The notes under the pieces were generated by a model. The model saw only the letters and a program-made list of their open reading frames with translations. It ran no database searches and was not told where the DNA came from. The position numbers were made by a program, and so were the translations under genes. This document shows positions 45,805 to 51,321 of a stretch of DNA of 64,000 nt, piece by piece; the first letter of the stretch is position 1; each line of letters starts with the position of its first letter. This DNA is from Desulfoscipio geothermicus DSM 3669. GTDB taxonomy: Bacteria; Bacillota; Desulfotomaculia; Desulfotomaculales; Desulfallaceae. The stretch covers positions 1 through 64,000 of the forward strand of contig NZ_FOYM01000020.1 of NCBI RefSeq assembly GCF_900115975.1. The letters are read 5' to 3'.

Positions 45805-46731
45805 ATGCTTAAAGACCGGTTGCATTACTTTATGCATAATCCGCCGCGTGATGACCGCACCCGATTGGCCCACGCCCTGGATTTAATGTTACCACTGTTG
45901 TTTTTTTGGTCTATAACCATCTCGGCCATCCAAATAACGCATCTGGAACAACGAACGTTGAACATATTGCTGCCTTTGATCCTGGTCTTGGAAACCGCAC
46001 TAATCGTAACTTTAAAAGTAAGAAAAAATTGTCACCTCCGTATGCACAGAAATATCTGGTTTTCCGCCCGCAAGTGCCGGGAAAGAATTAAAAACATTGA
46101 TTCCCGGCAGGATTTTGTGCTGCTGGTGAAAGATTTGCTCACCAAAACATATGCTATGAAGGAGTTAGAAACTTTTTTCATCAAGGATGAATCCAGTATT
46201 GACCTTCATGGCGAACTTGGCAAACATAAAATAGCTGTATTATGTATCAGTGCCGATAAAGATGATTTTAAAGTTTGTGACAAACAAATTAAAGAATTTT
46301 TTGAGGACATAAAACGATATCATTTTGATGTAGGCCTGGTAGTAACCACCGGGGCATTTTCGGATGATGCCCACCGGTTTGTAAGGCGCATGAAGGGGCA
46401 GAAAAAGATCCATCTTTTTGACGGTTATACTGTACTGCGCATGGCAAAACACGCCGGGCACCCTATTTTTCCGGAAGAAAAATGGCAGAAAAACAACGAA
46501 TATGCCATAACCGGCTTGGAAATGGCCCTGTCCATTAAAGAAAACATATTGACATCTAAAAAAAGAGCGCTGCTTTTTGTTTTGCTGGGGACGGCGTTTC
46601 TGGTGATTGCCGCTCTGCAAGCCGATTTTATCGGCTCCCTATACTTGATCTTTGGTGTAATCAACGTATTTATCGGTTTTTCCGGGTACTTGCTAAACAT
46701 CTTACGCAGAAATGAATTAATTTTTGATTAG
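45805..46731 (+). CDS. Membrane protein with Mrr-like restriction-endonuclease fold domain
   Basis: A 308-aa protein. Two hydrophobic segments near residues 27-72 and two near 255-300 flank a cytosolic domain of about 150 residues. Within it, DFVLLVKDLLTKTYAMKELET, the strand HKIAVLCISADKDDFKVCDKQIKEF and VGLVVTTGAFSDDAHRFV follow the Mrr/PD-(D/E)XK layout. The usual catalytic QxK is not clear (HKIAVLCISADK), so nuclease activity is doubtful. The start has TGGAGG. It lies directly before the decayed mobile region. Function unknown. Confidence 0.65.
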   Translation: MLKDRLHYFMHNPPRDDRTRLAHALDLMLPLLFFWSITISAIQITHLEQRTLNILLPLILVLETALIVTLKVRKNCHLRMHRNIWFSARKCRERIKNIDSRQDFVLLVKDLLTKTYAMKELETFFIKDESSIDLHGELGKHKIAVLCISADKDDFKVCDKQIKEFFEDIKRYHFDVGLVVTTGAFSDDAHRFVRRMKGQKKIHLFDGYTVLRMAKHAGHPIFPEEKWQKNNEYAITGLEMALSIKENILTSKKRALLFVLLGTAFLVIAALQADFIGSLYLIFGVINVFIGFSGYLLNILRRNELIFD

Positions 46732-47162: not shown

Positions 47163-47210
47163 GTGCGCAAAGGACTACTGTTTACCGGACCGCCCGGGAC
47201 CGGCAAAACA
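47163..47210 (+). pseudogene. DnaC-like loader fragment (P-loop only)
   Basis: GTG at 47163 starts MRKGLLFTGPPGTGKT, the Walker A region of DnaC/IstB-type helicase loaders. The similarity ends right after the Walker A threonine, where restriction-enzyme sequence continues in frame. The junction marks a deletion that fused two unrelated genes. Confidence 0.55.
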
Positions 47211-48013
47211 CAAACCCGCTATTCAGTTAAATATGAAACAGAGGACCTGATTGCCCAAGCCGCCCGGGAAGTACGCAACATGCCCGCGATCGAAAGCCCG
47301 AAAATAATTGCCCAAAAGATGAGCCTGGATATCACCAAACAAGGCGTAACCGAGCGCATGCTGGCGGTGCAGGAAAGTAATGTTGCGTATGAAACCTTAC
47401 AAATACCCGATTTTAATAGGTTATATTCAGCGGGAAACCGAACTGATCCGGGGCACCATTGCCGATATTCTCATTAGGTCGGGCAGGCTGGACGATGTAA
47501 TGGTAAACCCCCAGCGGTTCCTGGAACAGACCACCCGGGCGATTCGTAAAACATTAAACGATATTATGGTTGACGGGATTAAATATGAGCGCATTGCCGG
47601 GGCCGAATACGAAATGTTTCTTTTTGAAGATCCCCGCCATGAAATCCAGGGATATATCAGCCGGATGCTTGGAAGTGAAAAAATCCATCTATGATGTCAT
47701 AGAGTTTGACTCTGAAGTGGAGGCAGATTTTGCCCGAGAATTGGATAGCCGCACTGATATTAAATTGTTTATTAAGCTGCCGCGCTGGTTTAAAGTGGAC
47801 ACGCCGCTGGGCACCTATAACCCCGACTGGGCCATAGTTAAACAGGCGGAGGGAGAGGATGAAAAACTATATTTGGTGAGCGAAACCAAATCTACCACCG
47901 ATCCAACCAAGCTGCGCGACAGCGAGTGGGACAAGATCAGATGCGGCAAGGCCCATTTTAAAGTGTTGCCGGATGTACAGTTTAAACATGTCAAGGTTGC
48001 TTCCGAAGTTTAA
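47211..48013 (+). pseudogene. Type III restriction enzyme (Res) C-terminal remnant, frameshifted
   Basis: Three consecutive frames carry adjoining pieces of a Res subunit C-terminal half: IIAQKMSLDITKQGVTERML and QIPD; then IGYIQRETELIRGTIADILI and DGIKYERIAGAEYEMFLFED; then KSIYDVIEFDSEVEADFARE, LPRWFKVDTPLGTYNPDW and LYLVSETKSTTDP (nuclease region) ending at 48013. Frame changes lie near 47412-47415 (one extra T in a T4 run) and near 47668 (one extra T). No mod gene is present. It cannot give an active enzyme. Confidence 0.75.
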
Positions 48014-48324: not shown

Positions 48325-49125
48325 CTAAGTATTAGCGACCCATTTTTCATAATGATTGGATAAGAATAATTGCAAATAATCCTTAAAATTAATTTCCATC
48401 AGCTCTTTTGAGCTTGTCCATTCAAAATACCTGATGTTTTCGATAAATGAATGAAAGATCTTGTTTTTCAATAACTGAATAACCAAATTATTTTTACTAT
48501 TTACAGACTTTGATTTATCATCAGGTTGATTTTTGATTATCGTACGAATAATCCCAATTAACAAATCGGTTAATTCGACACCAATTTCCACGCCTTTAGG
48601 AACAAGTTTACTATTCTCAACGATGTAATGCTCTCCCCTGTAAAGTGATTGAGTATTCAGTTGTTCCTTGACAACATCATGAAGCCGGAGAACTTCATAT
48701 TCGCTTGAATGTTCAATAAAGATATCGGTCTTGATATAAACATTTTTCCCATAGCCTCGAAGAAGTCCGTAAATAATTCTTTCCGGGAACTTGGTATAAA
48801 TCATCCGCTCAACCGTTTTACTGTCGAATTCTTTACGACCGGTAAGAACTGAATAATCATAATTAATGACGTTTAACTTGGTCATACCACAATACTTGTT
48901 AAAAATTTCTATAACACCGGTGATATCTTCTCTTTTTTTGGCATCTCCGGCATAGGACTTCCAATGAAGCTTTAGTTTATTATCCCTCAATTGTTGAGAA
49001 TATGATTCCAGGTCTGGAGAATTATAAATAATAGCCGGGATTACAAGTCCAGCCATTAAATTTGGTTTTTCCGAACCTTTACCACTTTCATCAAAAAACA
49101 CTTTGATCGATTGCTCTCTTTGCAT
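48325..49125 (-). CDS. DUF3800 domain protein
   Basis: A 266-aa protein. The N-terminal VFFDESGKGSEKPNLMAGLVIP has the Asp-Glu-Ser-Gly motif (Asp12, Glu13) that defines DUF3800, a family with a predicted RNase H-like fold often found on mobile and defence-type islands. Acidic residues that could complete a metal site lie in INYDYS and ELTDLLIGIIRT. It is intact, AT-rich relative to the core genome, and sits among decayed mobile pieces. A consensus promoter and structured RNA start 31 bases upstream in the opposite direction. Confidence 0.8.
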   Translation of the reverse strand: MQREQSIKVFFDESGKGSEKPNLMAGLVIPAIIYNSPDLESYSQQLRDNKLKLHWKSYAGDAKKREDITGVIEIFNKYCGMTKLNVINYDYSVLTGRKEFDSKTVERMIYTKFPERIIYGLLRGYGKNVYIKTDIFIEHSSEYEVLRLHDVVKEQLNTQSLYRGEHYIVENSKLVPKGVEIGVELTDLLIGIIRTIIKNQPDDKSKSVNSKNNLVIQLLKNKIFHSFIENIRYFEWTSSKELMEINFKDYLQLFLSNHYEKWVANT

Positions 49126-49155
49126 GATAAAACCTCATTTCTCTAATAATCAAGA

Positions 49156-49184
49156 TTGACAAATTGTGTTCGATTAGATACTAT
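49156..49184 (+). promoter_or_regulatory. Consensus sigma-A promoter of the DUF3800-linked RNA
   Basis: TTGACA (49156-49161), a 17-base spacer and TACTAT (49179-49184). It predicts a start near 49191, exactly before the first hairpin. Confidence 0.75.
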
Positions 49185-49190
49185 AACAGT

Positions 49191-49313
49191 GTAATATTTG
49201 TTCTCATTCTTGTGAGTGCGAGCAAATATTGAGACTGATAAGTTCGTTCTCGTGAACGCGCTAATATCAGTCCTCAAAACTACCAAACTTCTTTGGTAGT
49301 TTTTTATTTTTTT
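49191..49313 (+). ncRNA. Small structured RNA divergent from the DUF3800 gene
   Basis: About 120 bases form three stacked hairpins. A: AATATTTG (49193-49200) with CAAATATT (49223-49230), with inner CTCA/TGAG. B: TTGAG-ACTGATA (49229-49240) with TATCAGT-C-CTCAA (49265-49277), with inner GTTC/GAAC. C: a 12-bp perfect stem (49276-49287 with 49292-49303), CTTC loop and T-rich tail, an ideal terminator. The apical parts of A and B are similar (TTCTTGTGAGTGCGAG and TTCTCGTGAACGCGC), as in a two-copy repeat. No open frame with a start fits inside. Hairpins A and B overlap by two bases. Confidence 0.7.
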
Positions 49314-49314
49314 A

Positions 49315-49696
49315 CTAATTCTCTAAAAACTCCTCCTTTTGTTCATTCTCTTCATTGGTTTCATCCACATTTTCCTTATCTATTTCTTCTAAAACCTTTT
49401 CGATTCTTCCATATTCCAAAAAATTCTTTTACTCTTTGCTTAAAAAATCCTGCATCTACCTGACCTAAGTCTTCAACCAACTCAGAAATTGCCTCCCACT
49501 TGGCTGGGCCATCGATTTGAAGTTCGTGATTTAAAGCAAGGTCAATAATTTGTTTCTTTTCATATTTAAGCGGGATATTAAATAATTTATGATCTTCGAT
49601 GTAGAGCTTACTCACCCCATAATTAGATAAATGCTGCAACGGGTAATAAAAGCAGTTACTAAACCATTGTCCCTTTTGGATAGAATAAAAATCCAT
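49315..49696 (-). pseudogene. AT-rich gene with single frameshift at an A6 run
   Basis: From ATG at 49696 the minus strand reads MDFYSIQKGQWFSNCFYYPL... for 106 aa to a stop at 49376. Removing one base from the A6 run at 49418-49423 restores a longer frame to 49315 with the acidic tail KVLEEIDKENVDETNEENEQKEEF. The protein would have about 126 aa. I do not recognise it. Its low GC content equals that of the DUF3800 gene and contrasts with the GC-rich DNA that begins near 49740, so this is a boundary of inserted DNA. Confidence 0.5.
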
Positions 49697-51223: not shown

Positions 51224-51321
51224 TGGCGGGAGTGTGTGAGAATCGAACTCACCAGGGACGGGATCGCCGCCCCACGACTGGTTTTGAAGACCAGGAGGGC
51301 CACCAGGCCCCATCCACCCCC
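51224..51321 (-). tRNA. selC: tRNA-Sec (anticodon TCA)
   Basis: A 98-base tRNA with the special features of bacterial tRNA-Sec: an 8-bp-type acceptor stem ending GCCA, a 6-bp D stem (GGGGCC/GGCCCT), anticodon arm CTGGT-CTTCAAA-ACCAG with anticodon TCA, a long variable arm, and T arm GTGAG-TTCGATT-CTCAC followed by the 8-base acceptor strand. CCA is encoded. The last acceptor pair (G-A) is mismatched. It reads UGA as selenocysteine together with SelA and SelB encoded at 27354-30712. Promoter and terminator flank it, so it is a complete single-gene unit. Confidence 0.93.

Follow-up and report, generated by a model that had tools for sequence, protein, structure and literature searches.

The module described here lies at positions 48325-49313 of the window, by which we mean the whole 64,000-nucleotide stretch of Desulfoscipio geothermicus DNA that was analysed. 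Its protein-coding part is an open reading frame on the minus strand (48325-49125, ATG start) for a DUF3800-like protein of 266 aa beginning MQREQSIKVFFDESGK, as the preliminary description of this DNA had stated, and a GAGG at 49133-49136, 7 nt upstream of the start on the same strand, is the probable ribosome-binding site. A sigma-70-type promoter, TTGACA-17-TACTAT, is directed away from the gene (49156-49184, plus strand) and agrees with the consensus at 10 of 12 positions; it had been recognised before, with a distance of 31 bases to the DUF3800 start codon that we count as 30 nt. It is followed on the plus strand by hairpin A (49193-49230), hairpin B (49231-49275) and an intrinsic terminator found by a terminator scan (49276-49312), a 12-bp hairpin with its stem and T-run at 49276-49303. 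These are the three stacked hairpins, the last a 12-bp stem with a T tail, that had been read from the sequence earlier, with coordinates correct to within one base, and the region 49186-49312 folds at -49.3 kcal/mol compared with -20.7 ± 3.1 kcal/mol for shuffled sequences (z -9.2, 0 of 200 shuffles). Hairpins A and B are both defined by fold and covariation, B being a second copy of the unit on a different basal stem. That their apical parts are alike, as in a repeated RNA unit, had already been proposed and is supported by a single covariance model (R1), which matches A with 39.3 bits and B with 24.0 bits and, over the 3.65-Mb genome, finds only these two hairpins at E<1. ORFs of 22-56 aa also occur within the RNA, but their starts are weak and nothing supports them as genes, and they were rejected. 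The terminator stem ACUACC..GGUAGU is common to the window and its closest relatives, loci L014-L016, L018, L019, L021 and L044, and this conservation across relatives exceeds what a terminator requires.

A possible promoter of the DUF3800 gene itself, ATGAGA-16-TATAGT with a TG element (49180-49207, minus strand, 9 of 12 pattern matches), overlaps the -10 element of the RNA promoter and hairpin A. Across the loci studied, gene-side promoters are not clearly conserved, and we regard the candidate in the window as weak because such promoters barely outscore shuffled sequences. We examined whether a neighbouring frame of 106 aa (49376-49696, minus strand) forms a third component and decided against it, since it is a fragment of a helix-turn-helix protein (BLASTP 73% over 80 aa to the nearest relative, in L098, which at full length has 309 aa and carries HTH_36) and probably lies outside the module. 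Upstream of the module are fragments of a type III restriction endonuclease in different frames (47163-47694) and an Mrr-like endonuclease gene (45805-46731); of the phage and restriction remnants mentioned in the preliminary description, the latter are thus present and phage remnants within the window were not confirmed. A selenocysteine tRNA is found at 51228-51321 on the minus strand (Rfam, 71 bits).

The assignment of the protein to DUF3800 is marginal by Pfam alone (PF12686, 18.9 bits, E 0.0026, with a gathering cut-off of 21 bits) and is supported by its homologues, 26 of 38 of which match PF12686 at E≤0.001, and by the predicted fold. An AlphaFold model built with 38 homologues has a pLDDT of 95.4 and a pTM of 0.93, and its best fold match in the PDB is RNase HII 1eke (Z 11.9, rmsd 4.2, 172 residues aligned), well above unrelated structures in the same comparison; human RNase H2 is matched with Z 11.0. 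The modelled fold is RNase HII-like, which makes the earlier suggestion of an RNase H-like protein more exact, and the protein is a predicted RNase HII-like nuclease. All 49 homologues examined keep D12 and E13 in strand 1 and D187 in a late helix, and all have E or D at position 138, where strand 4 ends (E138 in the window). Judged from alignment and model, these four residues are arranged as would be expected for a metal site of the RNase HII type and are a candidate active site. The FFDESGK of the window protein resembles the DEAGRG motif of RNase HII. RNase HII/RNase H2 is the nearest solved fold, yet identity is about 12%, and the DUF3800 protein differs further in having extra helical segments and in being almost always RNA-paired and in being mobile. 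An RNase H fold with a catalytic rearrangement has been seen earlier in DUF3800 (PMC10910872). Searches against NCBIfam and PADLOC gave no match to the window protein, and neither phage records nor PDB sequences contained a homologue of it.

Homologues were recruited by protein alone from plasmids, from one genome for each of about 85,000 species and from viral contigs, and the divergent upstream strand of the recruited loci was then folded. Nearly every locus has two tandem hairpins with apical parts that are alike within the locus and different between loci, and the basal stems of the twins differ everywhere. In an automated test of 68 loci, 76.5% had adjacent hairpins with a similarity of at least 12 on the divergent strand; for dinucleotide shuffles the figure was 1.5%, and for control regions downstream it was 4.6%. 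For 50 pairs the mean A/B similarity within a locus was 16.3 against 6.65 ± 0.39 after permutation (0 of 2000); these units were listed by hand from the folds, which could favour similarity, and the automated test on 68 loci repeats the result. The likeness is moderate in the subgroup of the window (10 in the window, 5-6 in L014 and L015) because the upper stems have drifted and the core has stayed. Two loci found later, L098 (protein 89% identical, same order) and L099, are consistent with this arrangement. The window belongs to group I, with FFDESGK and about 266 aa, in which RNA similarity correlates with protein similarity (Mantel rho 0.49, p 0.001). Group II, with YFDESNK and about 320 aa, comprises Paenibacillus and Bacillus relatives and has a different hairpin core, CUUUCYCCGCU...AGRGCUGG, which likewise occurs twice.

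In an alignment of 22 units the structure is paired in 78.5% of cells, and covariation scores 0.502, compared with 0.219 for shuffled alignments (0 of 500) and no more than 0.194 for slid structures. Within the lower stem, each of the three pairs closest to the core (columns 12-14 with 35-37) has 9-13 changes on both sides, and no more than five cells are broken in any of them. Around the upper stem the bases U, C ... G, C, G are invariant, giving a U.C mismatch between conserved C-G pairs; in hairpin A of the window they are U49204, C49205, G49218, C49219 and G49220. Conservation of the hairpins at other DUF3800 loci, on which the preliminary description had made its case depend, is thus found, and covariation of the stems is present in both repeated hairpins. 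The RNA promoter is conserved as well, with a score of at least 9.5 in 90% of 50 loci compared with 20% of shuffles, and stands at a fixed distance before hairpin A, 5-9 nt in most relatives of the window and 20-28 nt in the second large group. Inspection of sequences in group I also revealed an AGUA facing a GAAA across an internal loop in hairpin B of L016-L022, L024 and L034, which we take to resemble the bulged-G motif of the sarcin-ricin loop.

The distribution of the module is patchy and mobile. The 15 relatives sampled in the same family all lack the protein; one further genome of the order has it, and within the phylum it occurs in 7 of 398 genomes. Immediate neighbours across the loci have no common family except integrases and recombinases, and the recurrent settings are integrases, recombinases, prophage lysis modules and plasmids. 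Some modules stand behind prophage holin/amidase genes, some plasmid modules stand beside restriction or CRISPR genes, and those of L018, L019 and L047 are near tmRNA, a usual integration site of genomic islands. The mobile or defence-type setting proposed from the window is supported.

Such mobile settings would suit hairpins that function at the DNA level, for instance as binding sites for proteins by which the mobile element recombines or replicates, and that the nuclease treats as DNA; RNase H-fold enzymes include recombinases, and hairpins adjoin nuclease genes in IS200/IS605-type elements. The hairpins, however, favour one strand: in 100 of them the divergent strand has 147 G-U pairs and its complement 32, which is why we take the divergent strand to be the functional RNA strand; folding is also more stable on that strand for 70 of 99 hairpins (p 4.6e-5). 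The conserved promoter and the terminator indicate the same strand as the G-U pairs, and the hairpins are on one side of the gene only, so that we consider a role as DNA very improbable. It is even harder to believe that the RNA is an independent regulatory small RNA merely adjoining the gene, a reading for which nothing specific speaks, as the pairing recurs over families, plasmids and prophages with no other common neighbour and the similarity of the RNA follows that of the protein.

Our data show that the RNA family is real, is absent from Rfam 15, and is tied to an RNase HII-like DUF3800 protein in a conserved divergent architecture. A search of Rfam 15 with the window RNA gave no family match, all DUF3800 models included, and the same was found for the RNA region of 45 related loci; a match to one of the named DUF3800 RNA motifs, which the preliminary description had raised, was not found. 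Matches at a permissive threshold (snoR83 with E 1.3 and similar) are chance only. RF02970, tried as a DUF3800 RNA, proved to be an unrelated family, and the search with RF02968 was uninformative because it gave no match in 199 genomes nor in controls. The association of structured RNA with DUF3800 is already known and is cited in PMC10910872. The Rfam DUF3800 motifs are, like the window RNA, structured RNAs that adjoin a DUF3800 gene. Gene order was compared for two of these families, DUF3800-I (RF02969) and DUF3800-VII (RF02967). In both, the RNA is on the strand of the gene, just upstream of it with a terminator between in DUF3800-I (L084) and just downstream in DUF3800-VII (L090-L092), whereas the window RNA is divergent and, unlike either, consists of two copies of one hairpin. 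The module is a fresh variant of this known but unexplained association. The genome of the window has a second, unrelated DUF3800 gene (G000:C75:13610-15987; L096 2611-4988), which is interrupted by an inserted segment carrying a transposase-like ORF; a DUF3800-VII RNA follows on the same strand (Rfam, 69 bits).

In the literature searched we found no tested function of a DUF3800 protein or RNA. By analogy, the nearest tested system is AbiF with RCd22, a small RNA with two hairpin motifs that binds and neutralises the AbiF nuclease (PMC12373285). Shared with the abiF motif (RF03085) are an RNA of about 120 nt, two hairpin copies, a terminator, an adjoining nuclease gene and an occasional place in prophage lysis modules. 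AbiF is a HEPN protein, however, whereas the window protein is RNase HII-like, and the AbiF RNA is co-transcribed, upstream of its gene and matched by RF03085, in contrast to the divergent RNA of the window, where neither RF03085 nor an Abi_2/AbiF model of Pfam or PADLOC gave a match. In type III toxin-antitoxin systems, one operon generally encodes both a nuclease and the repeated units of a small RNA (PMC5086642). The window module shares with ToxIN, CptIN and TenpIN a repeated RNA unit, an endoribonuclease-type protein, mobile DNA and an RNA similarity that tracks protein similarity; repeated RNA units adjoin the protein gene, as is characteristic of type III, with a similarity within loci beyond that of permutation. 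In type III the tandem repeats are pseudoknotted (PMC5086642), compared with two hairpins here, in which no pseudoknot was noticed, and the RNA lies upstream in a single operon with a terminator before the toxin, compared with divergent transcription units and a terminator directed away from the gene. No ToxN, CptN or TenpN-type toxin was matched in Pfam or PADLOC, and the fold differs, being RNase HII-like. We therefore propose a module that would work in a type III-like manner and lies outside the current definition.

The most likely reading, which we hold with moderate confidence from sequence and analogy, is a type III-like toxin-antitoxin pair in which an RNase HII-like toxin would be held by the two-hairpin RNA. 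A protein-RNA pair of toxin-antitoxin-like or defence type had been suggested in the preliminary description. The self-contained module would then consist of an RNase HII-like endoribonuclease and a divergent RNA of two protein-binding hairpins and a terminator. The strong promoter would drive synthesis of the RNA, in which every hairpin most likely engages a single molecule of the cognate nuclease and renders it inactive. If RNA synthesis halted, by loss of the mobile element or because a phage has taken over transcription, the less stable RNA would decay and the freed nuclease could cut cellular or phage RNA. Transcription, binding, inhibition, toxicity and trigger are what we infer here from evidence at the sequence level.

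The manner in which the modules decay bears on this. The RNA is kept beside about nine DUF3800 ORFs that are broken by a stop or frameshift (L016, L034, L035, L044, L045, L050, L070, L102 and L105), and an intact ORF without twin hairpins is found in the Niallia lineage only (L007, L040 and L041). An RNA that outlasts the nuclease ORF, as also in the orphan of L108 described below, is what an antidote RNA predicts. Errors of sequencing or assembly may account for some of the breaks, and RNAs persisting beside broken ORFs may simply not have decayed yet. The same asymmetry would be unexpected if the RNA were a mere activating cofactor or sensor, in a ribonucleoprotein nuclease that is inactive without RNA and recognises phage nucleic acid or another signal of an intruder. 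The RNase H-like fold and defence-type settings are in line with such a complex, and DUF3800 domains also occur beside Cas12 (PMC10910872). There is no single-stranded guide, however, both units being closed hairpins in an RNA that ends in a terminator, and we consider this reading rather unlikely. A purely regulatory role appears less likely still; here the RNA would serve both as substrate and as autoregulator, its hairpins being processed by the nuclease they accompany, with feedback through the overlapping divergent promoters. In its favour the -10 elements of both promoters overlap in the window, and processing of the RNA by its toxin is also known from type III systems (PMC5086642). The RNA, however, runs away from the gene and so is no leader, conservation of the gene-side promoter is no better than chance, and a patchy, mobile distribution would be unusual for a housekeeping regulator.

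Should the module be a toxin-antitoxin pair, as we favour, the RNA-antitoxin systems would gain a toxin with an RNase HII fold and a gene order that is divergent. The module is compact and recognisable, with a defined RNA unit, strand, promoter and candidate active site and with natural broken and orphan variants, so that the role of DUF3800 becomes directly testable. One orphan at L108 (1400-1640; G352:C1:1239680) has the promoter and both hairpins, is nearly identical to Heliorestis L023 and adjoins a phage integrase. There is no DUF3800 gene within 1.5 kb of it, and that genome has a group II module about 13 kb from the orphan RNA but no protein of group I. It is tempting to speculate, and we do so tentatively, that there is a superfamily of RNase HII-fold toxin modules with locus-specific twin hairpins, in which the pairs would be mutually specific, as each locus has its own version of the twin hairpin, and solitary RNAs such as that of L108 would be anti-addiction antidotes against incoming elements. 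Two genome matches with a single hairpin, L109 and L110, were rejected as twin-hairpin RNAs because they resemble terminators or leaders. A suggestive case is L107 (1500-1580, genome G091), where two tandem window-like hairpins ending in a T-run stand, on the reverse strand relative to the locus and with no DUF3800 gene, beside a Phd/PIN type II toxin-antitoxin pair.
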